DNA of 64,000 nt from Ornithodoros turicata (taxonomy: Eukaryota > Arthropoda > Arachnida > Ixodida > Argasidae). Where the stretch lies: contig NC_088201.1 of assembly GCF_037126465.1 (NCBI RefSeq), positions 127,472,665-127,536,664 on the forward strand, in the 5' to 3' direction. The translations under genes were made by a program, and so were the position numbers. The notes below the pieces were generated by a model. That model searched no databases. It had not been told where the DNA came from and was given only the letters and a program-made list of their open reading frames with translations. Position 1 is the first letter of the stretch. Every line of letters starts with the position of its first letter. This document shows, one piece after another, positions 5,576 through 54,215 of this stretch.

Positions 5576-5895
5576 TCAAACGACAGGATCGTTCACGCGC
5601 GGCTCGTCTGAAAGCACTGGAATACCAAATTCTCGTCGCTGTCGTTCGATGACATCACACACCACGTGCAGTCGCTTGCAAACGACTCGATTGCGCGAGC
5701 GAGGCACCTCGGAATAGGGCCCCAGGGTCGAAATCGAAACCGTGTCCAGTTGAACAACAATGGTCAACAAGTTCTGTCTTCGACCTTGTCGCGTTTGTTG
5801 CATTCTTCACGTCCCGTTTATGTTCTTTGAGCTGGGTGCTGCATTTTCTACCTGTATCGCCGACGTATGTGGCGTCACAGTCTAGGCATTTTACT
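5576..5895 (-). pseudogene. PLE-1 GIY-YIG endonuclease domain (broken)
   Basis: Minus-strand translation gives a VLYRVKCLDCDATYVGDTGRK block, matching the paired GxxY...YxGxTGR motifs and Cys pair of PLE GIY-YIG nucleases. Next come an EHKRDVKNA helix and a TELVDHC..TGHGFDFD segment. Frame changes occur near 5,800. Downstream, RRNRV-like and VLSDEPRVNDPVV segments end at a stop at 5,576. In PLEs this domain nicks target DNA for priming. Confidence 0.75.
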
Positions 5896-6399
5896 CGATA
5901 AAGGACACCGATCTGTCATGTGGGGGCACAGCGTCCTCAGGTTTGGAAATTAAATTGCTAAGTTTGGTGTACGGTTTGAAGGTTGCTTTGATGTTAAGGG
6001 GGAGTAGCGTTCGACGGATAGACTCCGACACGCCCTTGACATAGGGGATGCACAGATTGCCCTGGGTGAAACTCTGTTTGCCCAGCGACCTTTTTCTCTT
6101 CCATTCGCCTCCTTGTGTTTGCAATGAATGGCTTCGGGTACCCCGCTTCATCAGTGAGTCGACGATCATCGTTTCTTCGGCTGCGCGTAGTTTAGGGGTC
6201 GACGCGAGATTGTCGGACCTACGAAGAAGGCTCCTCACGACGCTTCGTTTGTGTTCCACCGGATGGTGAGATTCGAAAGACAGGAAATTCCCCGTGTCGC
6301 AGGGCTTACGGTGGACTCTAGTTTCCAACTTGCCGGCTTGACGCCTGTGTACGCTGACGTCCAAACAGGAGAGGGTGCCGTGTCGTTCGGCCTCATGCG

Positions 6400-7236
6400 T
6401 GAACTGTATGATCGGCTCACGCCATTCAAAACGGAGAGGAAGTCATTTAGGTGGTTTTGATTAAGAACGACGAAAGTGTCATCGACGTATCGTTTCTAAA
6501 AATTGGGAACATGTTGTGTTCTCAGCAGCGCCGTCCCCTCTAGGTGTTCCACTATCACATACGCCATTGTCACTGACACAGGGATCCCCATAGGGCAACC
6601 TGCAATCTAATGGTAAATTTCACCAGGAAAGGCGAAATGTGTCTGGTTGAGGCACAGGCGTAGGAGAATCAGAATATCGTCAACAGTCAGGGAAGTGCGC
6701 GTGGAGAGCGTGTCGTCACTGCGGAAACGTGCCTCGGTCACAGCTATAGCGACTTCCGTCGGGACGTTAGTAAAAAGAGATATAACGTTGAAGGACACCA
6801 TGACGTCTTTGTCGTCCCACGTTAGGTCTCGGACAAGCTTGACAAATTCATTCGAGCTGCGGACTGTCAGTTGTTTTTTTCCGGTTACCGGGGTGATGAG
6901 TTCAACTAGGAATTTAGAAAGGCTGTAGGTGGGCGATCCGATAAACGAGACAATAGGCCGTAAAAGGCATTCAGGTTTATGAACCTTAGGTAGCCCATAG
7001 ATCATGGGGACGGAACCATCACACGAAAAGAGTCGTCGGTACGTGACGTCATCCAACCGTCCTTTCCTCTTTAGGTCACGTGAATGGTCTACCAGTGAAT
7101 GCTCGGTGTTGGCTGTCGGGTCGTGTTGTAGCTTCGTAAAATGTGCCGGGTCGTCAAGGATGTCATGCATCTTTTTTTCATAATCGCTTCTGTTGAGTAT
7201 GACCGTCGCCTTGCCTTTGTCGGCCGGAAGAACCAT
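6400..7236 (-). pseudogene. PLE-1 reverse transcriptase domain
   Basis: The frame opens with LPADKGKATVIL, the conserved RT entry block of Penelope elements. It is followed by YGLPKVHKPECLLRPIVS (fingers) and FNVISLFTNVP (motif A). In PLEs motif A normally reads F-D-V-x-SLFTNVP, so the catalytic Asp is Asn here. After a stop at 6,607 the frame resumes with GCPMGIPVSVTMAYVIVEHL (motif B region) and KRYVDDTFVVLNQ (motif C, aspartates intact) at about 6,500-6,470. RT of this type makes DNA from the element's RNA. Stops plus the motif A change make this copy inactive. Confidence 0.85.
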
Positions 7237-7786
7237 TATGGAATGATCCTATTGCAGATCCCGTATCGCTGACCGTTCCTGAGCTGTGAGATTGGTCGGT
7301 ATTTTTCTAGCTTTGTTTAATGTAGTTGCTATGCGGCTATGTGCGAGGTTAACTACGGTGGTATCCTTTAGTTGGCGAAGCTTATTCTCCACCTCGGCGA
7401 TGATATCCCGTTTGGGTACCTCCCGAGGTGTCACGGCGAAGTCCAGACCTTTTGGTCAAGACACTCACGTGCTTCTCGTCAAGGTGTTTCGAGGCTAGGT
7501 TTATGAGTTTGACATCACTCACACCAGGGGGTCTCACTGGTACCAGTCGAGACAACTTCCTGTCGCGGTCGCTCGTGCACTTATTGCTCTGTATGATTTC
7601 AGCATGATTTCGTGCAGTGAAGACTTTGTGCATGTCATCGTTCTGGAAGGTGCGCAGTAAGGATATTTCAGTGGATTCCAGGCTCTGCCTCGTGTCACGT
7701 AGTTTGGTAGTGTTCTCCTGGATACAGGCCCGTAGGCAATCATATCCGGGCCCTCTCTGGGACATGCACAGCGACCTCCTCAAGTA

Positions 7787-9302: not shown

Positions 9303-10375
9303 TTATGAGAAGGGGAAACCTTTTAAAGCCTTCTGGCAGTCCGGTAGAGGCCCCTTGTTATGATTATAGGCATTCTTGTCACTATGAATGTGCCATGACT
9401 CAAGGAATTTCCTGACTCCCCATCTGTGTTCACGTGTCAAGGTCTTTACATTATCATAATCGAAGGAATGACCTGTTTTTTGTACATGCTCAACAAGTTC
9501 GGTGAGACGATTCTCTACAGGCGGGTTCTTGACCTGGGCTTTGTGCCCCTTCATCCTAGTGGCTTTCGTTCTTCCTGTTTCCCCTATGTAGCATGCGTCA
9601 CAGTCTGTACACTCCATCTTGTAAACAACACCTGATTGGTACATATGGGGCACAGAGTCTTTGGGATGACAAAGTATGTTGCGCAATGTTTGTTTTGGTT
9701 TGAACGCTGTTGTGATACCAAGTGGTTTTAAAATCCTTCGTACCGGCTCTGACAGTCCGCGGACGTACGGGATACATACGAACTTATCAGGGGTAAGTCT
9801 TTCCATTGTGTTATCGGATGACATTCTAAAAACGGTGTTTCTAACGAAACTATCAGGGTAATGATTCCTTGTGAGGATGCCACTCGTCAAGATACGTTCA
9901 GCTGCCTTAGATTCACACGTGCTTGGTATCGCGTGTAAACGGTTGAATAATGACCTGACTACAGCTCGTTTGTGTTCAGGAGCATGGTACGAGTGAAAAT
10001 CTAAAACCGTGCCATTGTCACGCGGTTTACGATAAACTGAGGTACTGAGAGTACCTGACTCATTACGAGTAATTCAAACATCTGGAAAAGGTAACTCACC
10101 GTCGTTTTCCTTTTCTATCGTGAACGGTATGTTGGGGTGAATACTGTTAAGGAGAGTATGGAATGAAGTCACATCCTCACGGTTTAGCACTACAAAAGTG
10201 TCGTCAACATAACGCTTATAATATTTTACAGCAATGTTACTGGTGTCAAAAACTCGTTCTTCGATGTGTTCCATTACCAAGTTGGCCACTGGAACTGAGA
10301 CCGGACTTCCCATTGGGCAGCCTTCTATTTGTCTGTAAACTTGGTCGTCGAACTTGAACTAGGTTTCTTTAGGGC
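9303..10375 (-). pseudogene. PLE-2 RT C-terminal part plus GIY-YIG endonuclease
   Basis: The frame reads ...FDDQVYRQIEGCPMGSPVSV (RT motif B region) and KRYVDDTFVVLNREDV (motif C, YVDD intact at about 10,190-10,230), then the thumb. A stop near 10,074 breaks the frame. The last 195 residues (9,890-9,303) are open and carry the GIY-YIG domain: GVVYKMECTDCDACYIGETG with the Cys pairs, KATRMKGHKAQVKN, and a C-terminal EHRWGVRKFLESWHI block. The palm up to motif A is missing. The product would be inactive as RT, but the nuclease domain is unusually well preserved. Confidence 0.88.
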
Positions 10376-16475: not shown

Positions 16476-16678
16476 CGATTTCCGAGACGGTAAGAGCAGT
16501 GCGGTCCGACAAGTTGCCATCGTTATGTAGGCGGCTTTTGCCAACATCTATGGCAAGATCAATGGGCACATTTGTAAAAAGCGATGTGCCCATTGATCTT
16601 GCCATAGATGTTGCCAAAGCCGCTTACATAACGATGACAACTTGTCCGACCGCACTGCTCTTACCGTCTCGGAAATCG
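16476..16678. repeat. Near-perfect inverted repeat at the PLE-3 5' end
   Basis: The left arm (about 16,476-16,573) and right arm (about 16,583-16,678) are reverse complements over about 95 bp, with a handful of mismatches and a loop near TTGTAAAAAGCG. The right arm is in frame with the RT (LAIDVAKAAYITMT and SDRTALTVSEIV segments). The left arm is the same RT sequence inverted, as produced by twin priming or template switching during insertion. Confidence 0.9.
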
Positions 16679-17770
16679 TATCTTTGCTCTCATTCTGTCT
16701 TAAAGAAACCTACTTCAAGTTCGACGACCAAGTTTACAGACAAATAGAAGACTGCCCAATGGGAAGTCCGGTGTCAGTTCCAGTGGCCAACTTGGTAATG
16801 GAGCACATCGAAGAACGAGTTTCTGACACCAGTAACAGTGCTGTAAAATTTTATAAGCGTTATAAGCGTTGACGACACTTTTGTAGTGCTAAACCGTGAA
16901 GATGTGACTTCATTCCATACTCTCCTTAACAGTATTCACCCCAACATACAGTTCACGATAGAAAAGGAAAATGACGGTCAGTTACCTTTTCTAGATGTTT
17001 TAATTACTCGTAATGAGTCAGGTACTCTCAGTACCTCCGTTTATCGTAAACCGTGTGACAATGCCTCAGTTTTAGATTTTCACTCGTACCATGCTCCTGA
17101 ACACAAACGAGCTGTGGTCAGGTCATTATTTAACCGTTTACACGCGATACCAAGCACGTGTGAATCTAAGGCAGCTGAACGTATCTTGACGAGTGACATC
17201 CTCACCAGGAATCATTACCCTGATAGTTTCGTTAGAAACACCGTTTTTTAGAATGTCATCCGATAACACAGTACGAACGACTTCCCCCTAATATCGTATG
17301 TATCCCGTACGTCCGCGGACTGTCAGAGCCGGTACGAAGGATTTTAAAACCACTTGGTATCACAACAGCGTTCAAACCAAAACAAACATTGCGCAACATA
17401 CTTTGTCATCCCAAAGACTCTGTGCCCCATATGTACCAATCAGGTGTTGTTTACAAGATAGAGGGTCCAGACTGTCACGTTTCTACATAGTGGAAACAGG
17501 AAGAAAGAAAGCCACTAGGATTGAGGAGCACAAAGCCCAGATCAAGATACCGCCTGCAGAGAATCGTCGTACCGACTTGTTGAGCATGTACAAAAAACAG
17601 GTCATTCCTTCGATTTTGATAATGTAAGGACCTTGACACGTGAACACAGATGGGGACTCAGGAAATTCCTTGAGTCATGGCACATTCATAGTGACAACAA
17701 TGCCTGTAATCATAACAAGGGGCCTCTACCGGACTGCCAGAAGGCTTTAAAAGGTTTCCCCTTCTCATAA
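16585..17770 (+). pseudogene. PLE-3 RT C-terminal part plus GIY-YIG (broken)
   Basis: It matches PLE-2 almost residue for residue (QVYRQIEDCPMGSPVSVPVA). At 16,850-16,875 a small duplication of TTATAAGCG replaces the YVDD motif C and introduces a stop, so the RT active site is destroyed. The frame resumes at 16,886 (LNREDVTSFHTLLNSIHPNI). A second break falls at 17,250. The GIY-YIG core is eroded (the tyrosine/glycine block reads as STIVETGRKK), and more shifts occur before the EHRWGLRKFLESWHI-type end. Confidence 0.85.
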
Positions 17771-26399: not shown

Positions 26400-27890
26400 C
26401 CAGAATGTGTCGCACAGTTGACATTTTAGGAGCACCACCTAATGCAGCTGAGGGTGCATGCGTGGTATTATGCAGTCCAGCATGGCACGAAGAGCATGTC
26501 GTGTCATGTTCCTTGGGATGCTGGACATAGAAGTTTATTGTCATGAGCGCAAAATAATGTGCTTGCTGATATTGTCAAGTGGGTACGCATGTCCGTTCAA
26601 CAGTAGATTCCAAAGATATGGTATTGCATTTCAATGAGAAAGCTAATCTCGAAAATGTGCTAGCGTCATAATACGTGATGCAGATAAGGTCTTCTTCGCC
26701 AGACCTGGGTCATCTCCAGAGACCTCCCACATGAAATGGTCACAGGCTGGCAAACATAGCAATCTGAAATCTTTCTCATCCTTTGAGTAGCATTCAAATG
26801 GATTTTGTTAGACCCGTAAATTATGTTATCATGTCATTGATGTGATCTGTGGTACTGTCAAATGGGTGCACGTGTCTGTACAGCAGTATATATCGCGGAA
26901 CTGATACTGTTTCTAGCGTTTAAATGGGAAAGCTAATCTCGTAAATATGGTAACGCCGAAATAAATCATGCCGATGAGGTGCTCTTTGCCAGACCTGAGT
27001 CCATCCCCGCAGAGGCCGCTTACATGAAATAGTCATAAACGTAACATGGACTTCAAAAACCACTTACTATAACTGGAAACACTCTAGTCCTTTAAGATAA
27101 CAGTTAACTGAATAATGTTAGACGCATAATTCATTTCAGCTGTCTACGAAGTGGCGTTCCACACGTGTTTTGCAGCACCACCACAAGCACCATCAGCACC
27201 ATGTTATCGAAATTCGTGACCATCAGAAAATCGATTTCCTTCGTGTCAACACATCATGCTGGGGTTTAATCAGCAATAATCATCCGAACTCCTTTTACAA
27301 GAACGGATTGAGGAATGGTTAAGAAAGATGCTTCAACGGGGAGAAACACACATCCGAGAAAAACGAGAACAAAAAGAGTCTCACCTGGTGGACAATGGGC
27401 GTACGCATACGAATTTGTAGCGCGGAGATAGCGTGGAGAATCACAACTGTTCAAGCAGCGTCGTCCGCGTGCCTTGCCCACATATCGTGCGACGTTGTCT
27501 CGTTCGATGGCCATCTCTTCCTGTGATAAGTTTGACACAAATGAAATATGAAATTAAAAAAAACTACAGACACCCAGCGCAAAATGTGACAACTTACATT
27601 TGCTAGACCGTGCATGATGTGAGACGCCAGAAGCCAGAGTGACCGTTAACGAAGCGAGAGAAAAGACGCTTTGCACACGGAACCATGCACGTGTTCTCAG
27701 AAGGCAGGGCCCGTATAACAATTGAAAAACAATAAGCGTCAATATAGGCGTAAATGCATAATATGAGACGCCAGAAGCCAGAGCGACCGTTAACGAAGCG
27801 AAAGGAAAGACGCTTTCCACACGGAACCATGCGCGTGTTCTCAGAAGGCAGGGCCCGTATAACAATTGAAAAACAATATGCGTCACTATA
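26400..27890. repeat. Duplicated segment, copy 2, with internal tandem duplications
   Basis: It shares ordered blocks with 8,310-9,150. It also contains a diverged direct repeat of about 270 bp (26,566-26,829 and 26,841-27,135; shared GGGAAAGCTAATCTCG-type, GCCAGACCTG and TAGACCCGTAAATTATG-type phrases). A clean 144-bp tandem pair starts at 27,621 and 27,765 (each GAGACGCCAGAAGCCAGAG ... GGCAGGGCCCGTATAACAAT). The minus frames at 27,266-27,998 derive from these repeats. Confidence 0.65.
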
Positions 27891-28158
27891 GGCGTAAAGA
27901 GCTAATACTCCAACGCAGAGCTTCAGTTTATCCGTCAAGACGAAATCGTATGCGTCAGGATATAAGAGTAAATCATGTCCTCCGTCCCATTTACGCATAA
28001 AACTCCGCCCTTTACGCTTACAGCGAGCGCGTTTACGGGTATTAGGAATAAAACAGAGCTTGACGGATACGGCATCTGCGATTTTGTCGAACTTTACGCT
28101 TAGTAAGGGTAAGACTGGACGTAAGCGTAAATTTATCCGTTTCGTTTCTGAGAGTGTA
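27875..28158 (+). mobile_element. MITE, TACACTCTCAGAAA family, copy B
   Basis: It is homologous along its length to 17,886-18,170 (AATATGCGTCA, TTATCCGTCAAGACGAAATC, CTTGACGGATACGGC, GTAAGCGTAAATTTATCCG, ending TTTCTGAGAGTGTA). It is preceded by the GGGCCCGTATAACAATTG phrase of the duplicated segment. It is non-coding. Confidence 0.75.
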
Positions 28159-32212: not shown

Positions 32213-32944
32213 TCATAACGAGTCCTTTAGGCCTGTCGCCTCAAAAAAGCCAACTACATGACGTAAGGCCGCCCTGGAGTGGGCCGCGGTGTCCCAAGGG
32301 CCGAGGATGGTCGACAAGTTGAAGGGGCGGCAGCCAAGGGTGGCAAGCTGTAACTGTAGTGTTCGCCTCTCGTTGATATAGGTCCGGCAGCGGAGGAGTA
32401 TGCGTTCTACGTTGGCAAGTACACCACACTCGTTGCACATAGGGCTAGCCTCACAGCCTAGCTGGTAGCGATAGAACGGAGTGAAGGCCACATTCAGACG
32501 TAGCCCGTGGATGGGCGACTTCATAGGATGAGGAAGCTTTGCAGGCAGCCGGTATGACAGCGTTGGGTCTACACTTCCCAAAGAGGACCTAGTTGGAATG
32601 TCGTGTTGCCACTCTAGGGTAGACCTGTAATCGGACAAATGCCTGAGAAGGGATCTTCTGTCTCCTCTCGAGAGTATAATGGGCATAGAAGGCCGTCGTT
32701 GATGTGCAGCGGCAGCGTCGGCCTCGTGGTTTCCAGTTAGTCCACAATGCCCTGGAACCCACTGAAAGGAAACGGAGGGGGAGCGATCTTGTAGGGACTT
32801 CAGGGCGCACAGGATATCTATCACCACTGAGGAAAGGGAACCGCGGATGCCCATGTTTTTAATGCACAGGAGAGCTGCTTTGGAGTCGGTGTAAATTACC
32901 CAGTGCCGCGGTTCACAGTCTTCCGCATATGTCAAGAATAACAA
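32213..32944 (-). pseudogene. LINE RNase H and C-terminal domain ORF
   Basis: The frame starts upstream of 32,944. It has HWVIYTDSKAALLCIKNM (first catalytic Asp), SVSFQWVPGHCGLTGNHEAD (the PGHxGxxGNExAD box) and a C-terminal stretch SPIHGLRLNVAFTPFYRYQL. The knuckle that follows, CEASPMCNECGVLANVERIL, has lost its His. It ends FFEATGLKDSL and a stop. RNase H removes RNA from the RNA:DNA hybrid. This 240-residue piece is open, but it depends on broken upstream sequence. Confidence 0.85.
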
Positions 32945-33082
32945 GATAGCATAAAGTTCAGCGGATGTCGATGAGGTACAGTGAGACAGACGACGTGTAA
33001 CGGACTCTGATGGAATGGTAAAGGCTGAAGATGAAGTGTCCTTGGTCGGCGATCCATCCGCGTATAGAGCGGTACCGTTGCG

Positions 33083-33720
33083 CTATTGAGCCTCGATGAA
33101 GTCAAGGGTAAGTTGCCTAAGGATAACATCAGGATAGCTCTTTTTGTTGTTCTTGAGGCCGGGTATGGAGACAGTGACAGGCGGCGATGGCAACGTCCAT
33201 GGAGGCACTTTGGGTGCCGTCAGGTCGACTATGAATTTGGGGATATGAGGTCTGAATGATGTCACAGCAGCATGAACCGTCGCGTTCCGTCTAGCGTGAA
33301 GCTTGCGAATCAGAGAGTGACGGTTATGATGGGCACGTAGACGCAGATAGTGGCGTGCGGATTCCTCAGTACGGAGAACCTCAATGGGGATGTCCCTGGC
33401 CTCAGCCACTACTAGACGGGTTTCAGCGCCTCGCGGGACCTCGAGACATACCCGAAGGCTTCGCGCGAGCAGGGCTCGAATCCTTTGCATCAGTGTCTGA
33501 GGAAGTCCGTGCAGGACGGGGAGATTGTACATCACTGAGCAACAACCAGGACATTGTGCAGCATGAGGAGATCCTTCTCGTCTCGCCCCCATCTCATACC
33601 TGCGATGTGAGGAATGACATTGACCCAGCGTTGGACTTTCTTTTCAATAACGTCTATGTGGCGCTTCCACGACAAATTCCATGATAGAGTTATGCGAAAG
33701 GCACTCAATACCGTCTAGTA
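33083..33720 (-). pseudogene. LINE RT connection region (broken)
   Basis: Minus-strand frames read SWKRHIDVIEKKVQRWVNVI and HIAGMRWG, then, after a shift, VMYNLPVLHGLPQTLMQRIR (the 'YxLPxLxxLP...xL' segment seen after RT in I-type LINEs) and a polar linker to LRQLTLDFIEAQ. The catalytic palm is missing, as the copy is truncated at about 33,720 next to an AT/CG-mixed repeat (CCGAAATGCCGAAT). Confidence 0.75.
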
Positions 33721-39177: not shown

Positions 39178-39320
39178 GTAGGAAGGGAGTTGCCTCAGGA
39201 CAGAAGCCGCCGATATTTCGAACAAAGACTGTTCTTCTGGGCGAAGAGAACAGGCGCCCAGAAGAAGAACAGTCTCTGTTCGAAATATCGGCGACTTCTG
39301 TCCTGAGGCAACTCCCTTCC
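39178..39320. mobile_element. Small foldback containing a hammerhead-like motif
   Basis: GGAAGGGAGTTGCCTCAGGA...TTCGAACAAAGACTGTTCTT and its inverted copy AAGAACAGTCTCTGTTCGAA...TCCTGAGGCAACTCCCTTCC form arms of about 65 bp. The plus-strand right arm folds as a hammerhead-like unit (separate entry); the left arm carries the mirror copy with a deletion. Probable origin: two PLE-type terminal segments joined head to head. Confidence 0.8.
39253..39295 (+). ncRNA. Hammerhead-like motif with U4 changed to A
   Basis: GCGCC (stem I) is followed by CAGAAGA (39,259-39,265; core CUGAAGA with U4 to A), one extra A, stem II GAACAG / CTGTTC with a 3-nt loop, GAAA, the palindrome ATAT as stem III, C as the cleavage nucleotide, and GGCG, which pairs with the first strand. 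Every helix is intact but one core base is wrong, so it is probably an inactivated former ribozyme. Confidence 0.6.
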
Positions 39321-42755: not shown

Positions 42756-43282
42756 TGTTTATTCATTTTTTTGCGTGTTGTAGCTCGTGAACGACGAGCA
42801 AGAAACACTAATTCTGGAATTTTCGAATGTCTGGGTCTAGTGGTTCACTAGCTCATTGAATGTTCTGTGTCATTTTGATCTAAACGAAATTCAGTTAGTA
42901 CCTATCCATCTGAGCAAAATAAAGGTACGTACGTTGCGATATTTTTGGTACGCGATATTCATAATTTACACGTGCTTGTTTTGTCTATGTAAAAAGCGCA
43001 CTTCCTGCGCTCGTCATTTCAAGCTCTTCTAACATCCGCTTAAGGTCAAGCTGTGTCCTGGATACGCACAATTATACGCTTAATTGATCCTAAAAATTGC
43101 AGCGGCATTCTCTAGGCATTTCACGAAATGCCTTGCTTTTATAGACTTTCCTTATATGCTTGGTCGAACCCGGCATTTCATAATGTGCCTGTAATTGTTC
43201 AGTTATTTATTGAAATGTCTGATTTTGCCTTTGCCTGTAACAGGTATAGAGGGTGTCCCAGCGAAATGCGAACATATTTAAA

Positions 43283-43285
<3 letters not shown>

Positions 43286-43334
<49 letters not shown>
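43286..43334. repeat. (AT)n microsatellite
   Basis: About 24 AT dinucleotides directly precede the first tandem unit. The plus-strand frame at 43,128-43,451 that reads through it is an artefact. Confidence 0.95.
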
Positions 43335-43337
<3 letters not shown>

Positions 43338-44372
43338 TGTAACTCAGACGTCACCATGCTAGCACTGGACAGCTGTTTCGGCCTTGTTGGGCCTCATCAA
43401 CAGTACGCAGGCAGGCAACGTTTGAGTGGATGGCGTCAGAAGGTCACGTAACACGTGATTCCTCCCGTCAGGTTGAGATAACCCACTCACAGAAAGCCCA
43501 GTGCAAAGCCAGTGAAGTATAAAATGAAAAAAAAAAAATAGCCGGAGCTCTTTGGCTGCACGTATAGAATATGTTTGTAACTCAAACGTCGCCATGCCAG
43601 CACTGGACAGCTGTTTCGGCCTTGTTGGGCCTCATCAACAGTACGCAGGCAGGCAACGTTTGAGTGGATGGCGTCAGAAGGTCACGTAACACGTTATTCC
43701 TCCCGTCAGGGTGAGATAACTCACTCACTGAAAGCCCAGTCCAAAGCCAGTGAAGTATAAAATGAAAAACAAATAGCCGGAGCTCTTTGGCTGCACGTAT
43801 AGCATATGTTAGTAACTCAAACGTCGCCATGCCAGCACTGGACAGCTGTTTGGCCTTGTTGGGCCTCATCAACAGTACGCAGGCAGGCAACGTTTGAGTG
43901 GATGGCGTCAGAAGGTCACGTAACACGTGATTCCTCCCGTCAGTTTGAGATAACTCACTCACTGAAAGCCCAGTGCAAAGCCAGTGAAGTATAAAATGAA
44001 AAAAAATAGCCGGAGCTCTTTGGCTGCACGTACAGCATATGTTTGTAACTCAAACGTCGCCATGCCAGCACTGGACAGCTGTTTCGGCCTTGATGGGCCT
44101 CATCAACAGTACGCAGGCAGGCAACGTTTGAGTGGATGGCGTCAGAAGGTCACGTAACACGTGATTCCTCCCGTCAGGGTGAGATAACTCACTCATTGAA
44201 AGCCCAGTGCAAAGCCAGTGAAGTATAAAATGAAAAAAAAATAGCCGGAGCTCTTTGGCTGCACGTATAGCATATGTTTGTAACTCAAACGTCGCCATAC
44301 CAGCACTGGACAGCTGTTTCGGCCTTGTTGGGCCTCATCAACAGTACGCAGGCAGGCAACGTTTGAGTGGAT
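43335..44372 (-). repeat. Tandem array of ~235-bp hammerhead-bearing units
   Basis: Units start at 43,335, 43,573, 43,808, 44,041 and 44,276 (periods 238, 235, 233, 235); the fifth stops after about 97 bp. Units are over 90% alike by eye. On the minus strand each contains ACTCAAACGTTGCC and GGCGACGTTTGAGT, which pair as an outer stem around a hammerhead core. Short direct tandem units with one type I hammerhead each are the form of retrozymes. No protein is encoded; the minus ORFs across it merely repeat the same peptide per unit. Confidence 0.85.
43363..43425 (-). ncRNA. Type I hammerhead-like ribozyme, array unit 1
   Basis: Minus strand: TACTG (stem I), TTGATGA (43,400-43,394; core with C3 as U), stem II GGCC / GGCC with loop CAACAA, GAAA, stem III as the palindrome ACAGCTGT, cleavage nucleotide C, then CAGT, which pairs back with ACTG. 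Outer stem I continues after internal loops. Predicted cut between plus positions 43,367 and 43,368. U3 opposite G8 leaves a wobble instead of the usual C-G pair; all five units share it. Unit 3 (near 43,851) also lacks G12, so it should be dead. Confidence 0.72.
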
Positions 44373-44886
44373 GTCCCAATGAAAACATCAGGCCCTTCGG
44401 TCACCCGATACCGGAGCCGTTTTCAGAACAAAAATCCGTTCGATAGATCTTCCGCAAAAAATGCATGTAGGGACACCATTTTTTTCTTTGTTTTGTTCAT
44501 TGAGCATCTTCGGAGATGCGTCGTTCCTTCACCCCCAATGTTAGAGTGTGAAGGAACACAGTGCCGCCTCATGCGTCGAGGATGAGCTTTAACTTGCGGA
44601 AACAAACAAATGTATCGGGCGACTCCATCGGAACTGCCCTTATCTTGGGTTGCATTTTCTGTTTTCTTTTAATCTTTTTAAAGGACGCAAGACGCGATAG
44701 TGTTCTCTTTCACCCTCTCACATTGCGGGTGAAGGAAAGTCGCTTCTTGGAAGATGCGCAATGAACAAAATAAATAAAAATTGTGTTCCTTCACGAATTT
44801 TTTGCGGACGATCTATCGAACGCATTTTTGTTCTGAAAACGGCTCCGGTATCAGGTGACCGAGGGGACCATTCTAATTGGGACAAC
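44373..44886. mobile_element. Foldback element beside the array
   Basis: Left GTCCCAATGAAAACATC...CGGTCACCCGATACCGGAGC and right GCTCCGGTATCAGGTGACCG...CTAATTGGGAC are inverted, with CCGTTTTCAGAACAAAAATC / TTTTTGTTCTGAAAACGG between. Arms are about 105 bp. A second inner inverted pair involves GAAGGAAC and GTTCCTTC near 44,525-44,800. It is non-coding. Confidence 0.8.
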
Positions 44887-45056
44887 TTCGTAGCTTTTAT
44901 AATTAAAAAGTTAACTATGACATTGCCTTAGGAGTTTGCTAATGCCCTCCTAAGGAGTGCCCTTCAGCATATGCTGTATTGCAATTGATTTCATCTCGAA
45001 AAAGTGATGTATATATCTTTCAAAAATATGCTCGCATTTAGCCGGGACACCCTGTA

Positions 45057-46720
45057 TATGCTTGTACACCAAGGGTAGGTAGCGGAAAAGTATCTGCGTT
45101 ACCTTTATCTGGCAGCGGTAGCGGTGTCCCGTTATATTTTTGAATTTCTATCGACGCTAGTATTGCACTACTTTAAAGTGAAGCAGCGTGTAGCGGTATT
45201 CCGTCTAGTTTCGGTAGGGGGCACAACACTTGTAAGAAGTCCACACCAACTCTAATGAGAGCAAGGCATCCTCGTAGTTGTGACCACTGTGCTGGTGGCA
45301 ACTTCTTTCCTGGACTCTTAAGGTACGTCCTCACTATGCCGATCGGCAAGACCAATCAGCTTTCTCGATGTGCTTTGCCTATGGCTCACTATGCCGGTTG
45401 GCTTTGCCGAGCGGTACAGTGAGAACGCACCTTAAAGGAGCATTAAAGTGGTATTTAACATGGCCAAAAACTGTTGTCATCTTGTAAAGCAGTATGTGAA
45501 AAGCATTCCTACAAAATATTTCTGTTCCAACTTGTTTCACCGTGACGCAATTAATTTGCAAAATCCCCGCCGCGGCGACGGGACCACACCCACTGTAGTG
45601 TGACGTATGTGATAGAGAGCCCGCTCATTCGTTGGTAGAAAAAACCGTCTGCTCCGAATATTGCGACCTGTTTATTGTTGACTACCGTCACGTTGTTGAC
45701 TACCGTCGTTTATATCACGTTTTCTGAAAAAAACAAAGCATATATGCAGTCCGACAAAATAAGATTCCGATCACAAGAGTAATATCCGATTATCAATCAC
45801 CGCCGAGCGTGTTTGTCGGACGTCAACGATGGAACAGCAGCAGATATTCCCCCCTCGGTCGGCATGGCGATGCAACTACCGCACGTACACACACGTCCAC
45901 GCACGTCCTCATCAATGGCCACGTCCCGATTGTGTCGCTGAAGACCTCCCTGGTGTGACAGCACAGTACCAGTACCACACCAGGAAGCGGCACAGGACGC
46001 ACTCGTCGCTCATAAAAGTCACTGTAGCAGAAAGCAAGCCATGACTATGCTATTGTGGCGCCACCTGTTTGCCATTGAACCAACTGTGCGATGAAAACGG
46101 TCAGCCAGGCTGCACGCTGTCGGAAAGCACTGGGGTACCGCTGTACATCACACAGTTAGATTTGTGCTGTACCACTCGTTATTCCCGTGGTGTCAACGGT
46201 CCCCAAAAAATCGATGTCGTGTCGTTTATAGCCCTCAAATCCTCCGTCTCGGACATCACGCAGCCGGAGAACGCCTATCGTGTCCGAAGCGGTAGCAGAT
46301 GCTTCGGCCTGCGCGGTGTTGCTCACCTCGATCATGTGATCCCAGGGTCCAATGAGGAGAGTCCCCAACACTCAAGTCACATAGTGACGCGCGTGGCGAC
46401 GCTCATCACGTGTCTATCGTGAAGGCGAAGGAGGGTGTTTCGCACACGAGAGATCCGGGGGGCTATCGCAGGCGTCCCAATTTCGCTACGGTTGGACGAA
46501 TTGTGGGAAAACTATTTTCGGGTGCCTAATATTCCATACCGACCAAAAACAGACACAAAGTTGTGTGCCTCTAGACTGCTCGGTTAAGGGCAGATGCATC
46601 CGCATAGAGATTAAAGATACCGCTTCGAAGAAGACATTGAAGTTCTCGTAGAAACAACCGCACCATGTTGGAAAGATGAGGGCCCCGGAGCTCGACTTGG
46701 TAGAAACCATGATAGAATGA
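45057..46720. other. Unassigned, with one MITE-like left end at 45,430
   Basis: CTTAAAGGAGCATTAAAGTG (45,432) with the following AAACTGTTGTCATCTTGTAA looks like the start of a TTAA-type tick MITE, but no matching right end could be fixed. ORFs at 45,829-46,044 and 46,069-46,422 have no motif. No RNA gene found. Confidence 0.35.
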
Positions 46721-51762: not shown

Positions 51763-54215
51763 TAGAGACCGGATTTATATGCGCTAAAAAGTAATGAAAT
51801 ATGCAAGCAACTATGCACTCAACCTGGTCACAACATGCAGTAAAAATATCTCATATATGCGGTAATAACTCGAGGCGTATATGAAGCGATCTCGCACACC
51901 GTCGCCGAGGCGAGTGGTTTCTAAATGTAAATGTCATTTTTATTTAACCGGATATGTTGGGGTTACGGTGAAAGCGGGATATTCAGAGAAAATAATATAA
52001 GGCCGTGTTTCAATTGTTGGAACTGTTGAAGAAAATGTTTGCCAACACATACCGTTCAATATTGTTTGGAGTGAAGTTCTGGCGCCTGTCAGTCAGAACG
52101 TTCTTATAGTTCGAAAATGACCTCTCTACGTCGCACGTTGTGAGTGTAGCATACTTGAACGCTGAAAGTAGGGGTGCGGGCACAACCTCCAGTAAGGTGG
52201 CGTTAGGAACCGAAGCAAACAGATCGCCGACTACTCGGAGAACGGCAAATCGAGGATTATTTTGTAGCACGGCGTCAAATTTTCTAACAACCTTTGCGCC
52301 AACTGGACTGGTAATCTTTGCGAGTTCCTCGCGTACACCATTCACCACATCCAAGGATTCCACGAGCAGGAGGCCTCCCATTTCAAGCTTCCGGATGGCT
52401 CGCGCAAGGAAGGCGAAGTGCGTTTTCACTAACTGTAGCTCCACAGCTAGCACTGTGTTTTCAAAGAGCGCTTGTACTTCTCTGACAGCGCTGCTGTCCT
52501 CGGAACTGAACATGTTCACCACGTCCTTCAAGTCGTCGAAGTTAGTTGCATAGAAGTGGACGGTCTCCAACCAGGTGCCCCATCTTGTGACAACACGTTC
52601 AGGGGGCAGGCAACGTCCGGCATCATTTCTCGGTATGTTTCGACATGGCGGCTTCACAATAATTTTCTTAATGACTGACACTATCTTGTTGGCGAGTGGG
52701 TAGACCCCCAACTTTCTCTGCCACGTGGTTGAGGCCGTGCGCCAAACACGTTACGTGCACGAGATTTGGATAGGAAACATCCAGGGTGCCAGCAGCCTTT
52801 ATCATGTACGTAGCTGCATCTGTGTAAAATATCCTAAAGTTCCCTCCGCCCCCATCTGGCCAGAGTAGCTTGAGAGCATCGTTTACGAATCTAGCTACAG
52901 TGCCGTGGTTTGTTTTCTCAAGTGTTCGACTCGCAAGCAGATAAGGCATGGCCCTTTGATTTTCATCAAGTTTTCCAATAAGAAGATGCGCTACGTAGCG
53001 ACCGCAAGCGTCCGTCGTCTCATTTCCAGCAGCCCACATTAGGCCGTTTCCAACAGAAGACCTTATCTCGTTCACGGCTTTCTCGTACAAAAGAGGCAGG
53101 TAATTCTTGCGGAGAGTTGACCCTGCTGGTATCTTCCTGTGAGTATACTTCTCAAGGCATTTTCTTAGCGTCGGATTTTCGAGTTTGCACCACGGAATAT
53201 TAGCCGCGACAAAGGCTTCAGAGAGGTCCGCACGAAATTCGTCAAACTCAGGGCGAGAGCTCGCAGCGTGGGCGAGTAGGGGTTGTGAAGTCCTGCTCCT
53301 CTTTGCCTTTTCAGAAATGTGGCACTGCGACCTCACATGCTGGTCCACTGGGAACTTCCTCTTTGCATTGACCTATAAGAGACATGAAAAAAGGAAAATT
53401 GAGTCAGGAAGCATAAACAGCCGTGGCAAGGAATTTCTGTGAAGTAAATACTAAACAACGACCCTGATTTTGCGACGTTAATAGGCGTCTTTGCGCGTAC
53501 ATTGCGTAGCAAAGCGAGCCGCATTTGCGTATATTTGCTTGAGAGATTCTGGTTCGTAATCCTCCCCAATGCATGAAAGCCCATGCTTTGTAAACGTCAA
53601 GGGATGAGGGGGATATACGTTTATTTCGGAAAGGTCAGCCTGACCGAAGGTAGGCTTGCTATTCCTAAAACAAAAATATAGCAAGGGATGAAACTTGCAA
53701 AAATGAATGAACCCTGCAGAATAATATCTTTCCATCGGTGCACAAATCTGGATTCTCTGTCGTCCATCTTTTGTAGAGGCACGAAATTGATGGCTTAGGT
53801 CTCGGTATCGTAAGGAAACGACGTAAAAGCTGCAGACGCATGGTATGCGCCAGAGAAGAGAACGCATCATACTCTCTGTGGCAGGCAGAGAGGGCACAAG
53901 CTGCGTTCGGCGCAGCCAGAGTGGCGTCGACGCTCTCAGGGAAGGAATCACAGCAGACGGCACGGTGCGAGTGTCTAACCGGCGCCTTGCAATGCCAAAT
54001 ATGGTTCAGATCGATACGTCATATCTGACGAGCAGGGAAATATGTAGCAAAAACGCAAAATATGCAGCAACGTACGAAATATGCATTTACATGCACTTGA
54101 AACCTACCGCAAATCGTTTGGGACAAGGCTCAGATGTGCTTTCATGTCACTCCCAGTGTCAGTGTAAACCATGTTCAGGAAAAAATATGCATTTGTATGA
54201 AAATCCGGTCTCTGC
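51763..54215 (-). mobile_element. hAT transposon with near-complete transposase
   Basis: The left end TAGAGACCGGATTT (51,763) and right end AAATCCGGTCTCTG (ending 54,215) form a 13-14 bp inverted repeat, one mismatch at the tip. ATATGC-containing subterminal repeats lie inside both ends. The 8-bp flanks AGCATTAC and CATGTTAC agree at only four positions, so the target duplication has eroded or the boundary is slightly off. Length about 2.45 kb. It lies in the metalloprotease intron between exons 3 and 4. Confidence 0.65.
52010..53375 (-). pseudogene. hAT transposase, one frameshift
   Basis: An acceptor (CTCTTATAG) at about 53,376 precedes VNAKRKFPVDQHVRSQCHIS, the end of a BED-like zinc finger. 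Then come FRIFYTDAATYMIKAAGTLD (first catalytic Asp), VHVTCLAHGLNHVAEK (hAT CxxH motif), WGTWLETVHFYATNFDDLKD, and the C-terminal dimerisation block TTCDVERSFSNYKNVLTDRR with NIERYVLANIF. The two frames (53,348-52,668 and 52,711-52,010) overlap; an extra base in the run of five C at 52,705-52,709 explains the shift. Otherwise it is open for about 450 residues. This type resembles tick proteins labelled CGG-repeat-binding-like. Confidence 0.85.

Follow-up and report, generated by a model that had tools for sequence, protein, structure and literature searches.

Non-LTR (long terminal repeat) retrozymes of metazoans carry type I hammerhead ribozymes in non-coding tandem repeats of 150–450 bp, show no LTR features, have a GC content below 50% and several copies per array, and occur in genomes that also contain Penelope-like elements (PLEs), which are regarded as strong candidates for moving them, no more (PMC7229834; statements on this and the other cited articles refer to the portions of their text that were available). 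All of these properties are shared by a repeat array in a 64,000-nucleotide stretch of the Ornithodoros turicata genome (hereafter the window; contig NC_088201.1, positions 127,472,665 to 127,536,664), located at window positions 43335–44373 with the ribozyme on the minus strand. Hammerhead retrozymes are known in ticks, since a putative example from Argas monolakensis has been published (figure legend, PMC4918200). Judged from its sequence, the array belongs to a genuine retrozyme family, of which O. turicata has many nearly identical copies, and the traces of its insertion are unusually clear. With moderate confidence, we interpret the window array as a metazoan non-LTR retrozyme insertion made by target-primed reverse transcription, a process often primed twice in this family and probably carried out by PLE enzymes. 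The tick family differs from the metazoan retrozymes in its U3-G8 ribozyme core, two fixed ends at (TA)n and mirror-image arrays, none of which is mentioned in the available portions of PMC7229834.

The tandem array was delimited at 43331–44373 with a period of 234, 4.4 copies and 96% matches. It comprises four full units of about 235 bp (unit 1, 43335–43572; unit 2, 43573–43807; unit 3, 43808–44040; unit 4, 44041–44275) and one partial unit (unit 5, 44276–44373), all with the ribozyme on the minus strand. The unit period ranges from 233 to 238, the predicted monomers are 235, 233, 235 and 238 nt long, and no long terminal repeat pair surrounds the array. The right arm of the outer stem, ACGTTTGAGT, is present in all five units, and the left arm reads ACTCAAACGT in four of them and ACTCAGACGT in unit 1. 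Singletons make up 15 of the 16 substituted columns among the units, as expected if the units were born together and then decayed. The longest listed stop-to-stop frame within the array spans 155 amino acids, and a protein search found no homologue; the array also has no open frame with reverse transcriptase (RT) plus GIY-YIG domains, the mark of a PLE. Exact-pattern scans of viral_contigs and genome_contigs gave no match.

On the minus strand, each of the five units contains TTGATGA, GGCC-loop-GGCC, ACAGCTGT and C17. These form a 6-bp stem I within the long outer stem, a 4-bp stem II with a 6-nt loop and a stem III made by ACAGCTGT, with cleavage predicted 3′ of C17. In unit 2, the module together with its outer stem (extended stem I) covers 43580–43665 on the minus strand, as judged by folds and by pair counts among relatives, and the other units are built likewise. 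The Rfam model RF00163, with a gathering score of 34, gave 33.8 bits for units 1 (43362–43406), 2 (43600–43644, predicted cut 43606 (C17) / 43605 (1.1)) and 5 (44303–44347) and 29.8 bits for unit 4 (44068–44112), all on the minus strand; none reaches 34, and the E value of the top-scoring units is 1.3e-4 with the whole window searched. Stem I of the window units has a U-G pair where most relatives have U-A, and relatives with U-A score 40.6 bits. The motif of unit 3 (43821–43888, minus strand) lacks G12, has HH9 at 23.1 bits as its sole match and is expected to be inactive. A hammerhead descriptor matched the window four times, every time within the array, and found nothing in 100 Markov-resampled sequences. 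The original prediction of five in-register units with hammerhead parts and outer-stem arms is therefore borne out by the period, by the motifs in all five units and by the arms, including the variant left arm of unit 1. The type I assignment also withstands the covariance search, with four of five units slightly below the cut-off and relatives above it, and unit 3 keeps its proposed role as a built-in negative control. The palindrome in stem III is nothing out of the ordinary, because the Rfam consensus likewise has a loopless 4+4 stem III. The hammerhead repeats of newt and axolotl similarly have a weak stem III of 1–2 pairs with a palindromic or four-base loop; they measure 330–350 bp and come without mention of U3 in the available text (PMC7229834), whereas the tick unit has about 235 bp and U3.

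At least 285 matches to the unit were found in the genome (40 of 644 first-look candidates scored), and in the RF00163 genome scan, where 74 of 204,865 first-look candidates were scored, 72 matches exceeded the cut-off. For comparison, 33 loci were retrieved, giving together with the window 292 hammerhead modules, of which 259 are close and 33 older. RF00163 matched above the cut-off 73 times in these loci, in seven of the eight loci tested, with none in locus L048. Among 20 distinct aligned modules, 97.8% of the pair cells are standard, and five ribozyme pairs have changes on both sides, compared with none or one when the partners are slid by 1–3 columns. The analysis of pair changes used 21 chosen modules out of 79 distinct ones; 76 of 500 shuffles equalled or exceeded the observed number of doubly changed pairs, and a measure of further pair types fell below the value of 498 of the 500. 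The double changes represent few events and stem mostly from the older subfamily. We read the standard pair cells and the five doubly changed pairs as selection acting on the RNA fold. The pDo500 satellite of Dolichopoda, a unit of about 500 bp, is likewise an arthropod tandem hammerhead repeat with compensatory stem changes (PMC2837043). Collectively, the retrozyme-like reading of the original prediction is strengthened by the further copies it proposed to look for, by the 72 RF00163 matches and by the pairs changed on both sides. The family thus has the build of the metazoan non-LTR retrozymes, namely about 150–450 bp per tandem repeat, a type I hammerhead, no LTR features and many dispersed copies.

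Several other arrays of the genome are worth recording. A long hammerhead array with 233-bp spacing lies at contig C3:106,824,423–106,837,050, and its best units score 48.3–50.9 bits in the RF00163 scan, above the U3 family. In L035 (1244–7676), 28 unit matches (27 full-length or nearly so) show lengths and identities that seem to recur in a longer cycle, as if the array had later been expanded by unequal exchange. New arrays lie beside older arrays of 80–88% identity in L036, L046, L049 and L050, as if old copies or their TA-repeats attracted new insertions.

The ribozyme-strand 3′ ends of the arrays cluster at two unit positions. Of the young 3′ ends in the 33 loci and the window (n = 52), 29 fall at unit positions 1–3, 18 at positions 183–185 and five elsewhere. 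The junction at position 1 reads ...GTTACAAAC, then ATATAT, and that at position 184 reads ...CATTTTATA, then TATATA. Repeats of (TA)4 or longer adjoin 41 of the 52 young 3′ ends, compared with 3 of the 26 ends on the other side, and occur in 21 of 20,000 19-mers drawn at random from the window. The exact position-1/(AT)n junction pattern has 131 matches genome-wide, and the reversed pattern has none. In the window copy, unit position 1 abuts an (AT)25 microsatellite (43285–43334), the probable target, adjoining the ribozyme-strand 3′ end of the array, and the other end lies at unit position 98. The 26 young opposite (5′) ends show no common position, and the cleavage position (unit position 33) is not among them, the nearest being at 28 and 36, which speaks against 5′ ends as marks of the cleavage site. 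These counts omit L044 and L057, whose flanks match those of L043 and L056, as well as four runs truncated at the edge of a locus. L041 is duplicated and enters twice, and each split insert (L033, L036, L039, L050 and L055) enters as two separate runs. The L055 insert, which does not lie in (TA)n, has a 13-bp target duplication on its flanks, in keeping with metazoan non-LTR retrozymes, whose target duplications, when present, exceed 4 bp; within (TA)n a duplication is not resolvable, and none was seen at the window copy. Among the matches listed for the openly licensed PMC literature, nothing dealt with microsatellites as insertion targets of retrozymes or with twin priming of retrozymes.

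At many loci a forward array is followed by a reverse one, with the ribozyme 3′ ends facing outward. In 14 of 17 young palindromes, one outer end is at unit position 1 and the other at 184. Ten of these {1,184} palindromes came from a script and four (L050, L051, L055 and L062) were added by eye, L062 being {1,1} in the script; the value of 2.8e-5 refers to the 14 {1,184} palindromes alone. Seven locus-private variants, i.e., variants found in no other locus consensus, are common to both arms in 5 of 13 palindromes (L031, L033, L040, L050 and L055). Cross-arm identity exceeds the identity to other loci in 11 of 12 palindromes, and in L031 the 17 full units of the two arms do not differ from one another. 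According to a simple script, the arms join with overlaps of at most 4 bases or with short unmatched stretches. The {1,184} ends, the variants shared between arms, the uniformity of L031 and the duplication at L055 are consistent with a single event in which both cut DNA ends were primed on one repeating template.

In the core of the ribozyme, all five window units have U3 with G8, and the conserved C3-G8 pair is absent. The original prediction had noted U3 in all copies, and this extends to 242 of the 259 close modules (the other 17 have C), whereas 31 of the 33 older modules have C; other core positions are kept in most modules. U3 is the majority base in 33 of the 34 sources, window included; the 33 loci were drawn from the matches of one U3 query, which over-represents U3. 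Units with U3 outside the window score 40.6 bits with RF00163, and this score together with the majority in 33 of 34 sources marks U3 as a family trait rather than a fault of the window copy. Mere decay as the origin of U3 was accordingly rejected for this family, with the same over-representation in mind. The C3-core modules in L048 and in older arrays of 80–83% identity have an extra base before stem II. Covariation to U3-A8 occurs in nature, and U3-G8 is not mentioned in the available portions of PMC3088659. In pDo500, C3 is mutated in only 4 of 198 sequences (PMC2837043), unlike in the tick U3 family. How much change the hammerhead core tolerates at its C3-G8 pair could be tested with a family that spreads while U3 faces G8.

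The predicted folds come from energy models, which leave out tertiary contacts. In a single module, an alternative fold is favoured by 2.2–4.3 kcal/mol. Adjacent modules, taken two at a time, form a double hammerhead joined at the 8-bp palindrome, as does a pair of separate strands of either unit 2 or unit 3. All four adjacent minus-strand pairs are predicted as double hammerheads, with probabilities of 1.00 for stem III and 0.98 for stem I. For the newt and axolotl repeats, dimers cut well and single motifs poorly (PMC7229834), and the window folds predict likewise. When the whole array is folded, the first and last units pair (0.97) and the inner units hardly do so (at most 0.21); neighbouring units of the plus strand also pair with each other. 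The idea that the double-hammerhead fold is special is weakened by both of these results. Pairing with the palindrome of stem III would be stronger for a canonical core (−3.5 compared with −1.1 kcal/mol for the 4-mer duplex), so U3 may relieve misfolding against the palindrome.

The following course of insertion would account for these features. Arrays would be transcribed from the ribozyme strand, and the hammerheads, probably paired through the palindromic stem III, would cut the multimer to RNAs of about 235 nt. The host would circularize these RNAs, and the circle would serve as the template. A Penelope-type enzyme would cut (TA)n DNA, and reverse transcription would start at a fixed site of the RNA, unit position 1 or 184, and make several rounds of the template. 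In many cases the two cut DNA ends would prime on the same template, yielding head-to-head arrays with one end of each type.

The link of retrozyme insertion to PLE enzymes is a probable one and rests on shared anatomy. PLEs resemble the tick retrozyme in having two 3′ ends with a tail between them, inverted copies arranged head to head, target sites rich in AT, target duplications of short length and a hammerhead in the repeated part (PMC11167929, PMC3846280). The two 3′ ends and the head-to-head copies are a likeness in working, not in membership: the tick unit of about 235 bp is not known to encode a protein, unlike a PLE, and PLE hammerheads are described as atypical minimal variants, unlike the type I motif of the tick. 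The tail-like segment, unit positions 184–235 between the two 3′ ends (43756–43807 on the minus strand for unit 2), has about 52 nt, compared with 30–40 bp in PLEs. The lizard PLE PAc cuts and extends both strands and prefers AT-rich DNA, and its two internal start sites account for an optional tail (PMC11167929). In rotifers, PLEs occur as inverted copies with a tail on one of them and with duplications of 8–10 bp (PMC3846280). For PLE RTs, the scoring of 150 of 2,932 candidates in the tick genome yielded 151 matches, many of them lying in long open frames. Close PLE pairs, picked by eye among the matches listed, are head-to-head in nine cases, tandem in four and tail-to-tail in none. At contig C2:31760489–31767186, PLE copies lie two reverse and then two forward with a spacing of about 2.5 kb, which is also the tandem and head-to-head layout of the retrozyme arrays.

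More tentatively, and at somewhat less than even probability, the genome may record a single ribozyme-made RNA circle used in trans as a PLE template and copied simultaneously from both (TA)n ends, each with its own fixed starting position and several rounds of copying, with U3 easing folding with this stem III or keeping the circle closed. Several observations weigh against the preferred course of insertion by a Penelope-type enzyme. The start sites of PAc are not homologous to the cut DNA, whereas the UA-rich sites of the retrozyme RNA match the (TA)n target, and PAc ribozyme mutants still insert in vitro, so that its insertion there is independent of the ribozyme (PMC11167929). Folds of the predicted circle pair 57–61% of the bases, below the more than 70% reported for other retrozymes, and U3 with G8 retained is expected to weaken the core. 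The C3 modules with an extra base, in L048 and the older 80–83% arrays, show no RF00163 match above the cut-off. Three of the 17 palindromes (L036, L039 and L049) have other ends, four close outward pairs look {1,1} by coordinates (100 listed of 131 junctions), 8 of 13 palindromes have no locus-private variant in both arms, and in L053 the cross-arm identity is below the outside identity. The missing matches of L048 and the older C3 arrays, together with the existence of {1,1} pairs, slightly lowered our confidence in the more tentative circle reading.

If the template of the same target-primed insertion were a linear multimeric read-through RNA, the ribozyme would have no part in insertion. 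The lack of 5′ ends at the cleavage position agrees with this, as do one-direction arrays of up to 28 unit matches (L035), but the 17 identical units of L031 come more simply from one repeating template than from a mixed-unit array like that of the window, and we consider a linear template unlikely, while giving it serious weight. Twin priming is known from LINE-1, a long interspersed nuclear element (LINE), and the window itself holds a LINE-type RNase H frame, so a LINE-type enzyme might have carried out the target-primed insertion instead of a PLE. The 13-bp duplication at L055 is close to the LINE-like 15-bp duplications of Nematostella repeats (PMC4918200). Two fixed starts and frequent head-to-head copies are nevertheless described as PLE traits, and the PLE copies of this tick also form head-to-head pairs, which makes a LINE-type enzyme improbable. 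An ordinary satellite, spread by unequal crossing-over and re-insertion of DNA circles with the hammerhead as a relic, could explain the long mixed-unit arrays (L035 and L045) and the U3 common to all five window units. It would not be expected to produce fixed 3′ ends at (TA)n, variants common to inverted arms, the L055 duplication, stem pairs changed on both sides or window units that look born together, and we regard it as very improbable. The idea that a Tc1/mariner-like DNA transposon carries the array inside it when it moves, as the place of the array between terminal inverted repeats flanked by TA might suggest, deserves next to no credence, given an array-free copy of the surrounding element at L038 and the lack of that element at the ends of most retrieved arrays.

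The surrounding shell is itself well defined. Its inverted-repeat arms lie at 43245–43296 and 45007–45058, so the original prediction was right that the array sits within an inverted-repeat element, which it called Tc1/mariner-like, but the shell is not part of the retrozyme system. In L038 (4284–5183), an intact copy of about 0.9 kb of the same palindromic miniature inverted-repeat transposable element (MITE) contains no retrozyme unit, and in the window about 120 bp of the MITE left arm, judged by the right arm, are replaced by (AT)n and the array; the shell is therefore a separate element. Most retrieved arrays have no MITE match at their ends. The left terminal inverted repeat (43245–43284) and the rest of the MITE (44374–45058), made up of a foldback middle and the right arm with its terminal repeat at 45007–45058, do not belong to the retrozyme. 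Under the preferred reading of target-primed retrozyme insertion, many insertions in one sequenced tick carry fixed starts, a target preference and template variants shared between arms, and these traces make the mover enzyme and the RNA form of animal retrozymes directly testable.

Other elements are scattered through the window. Candidate PLE fragments lie at 5891–6442 (−), 6607–7248 (−), 9306–10073 (−) and 16847–17251 (+). The RT piece at 6607–7248 matches PLE-like tick proteins (best 64%, O. turicata), and its comparison with solved structures gave only weak matches to unrelated chains (E 0.12 or worse). The fragment at 9306–10073 has a weak GIY-YIG match below the cut-off (E 0.012), and those at 5891–6442 and 16847–17251 were assigned to PLEs by eye only. 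A LINE-like remnant occupies 32213–33643 (−), with its RNase H domain at 32213–33082. Two overlapping frames at 52010–53372 (−), the upstream one with a DUF659 match below the cut-off, resemble a hAT-type transposase by eye. A 144-bp unit is present in two head-to-tail copies with 93% matches at 27611–27898. Long hairpins at 16517–16637 and 39191–39310, to which microRNA models gave sub-threshold matches on both strands, are probably small foldback elements.
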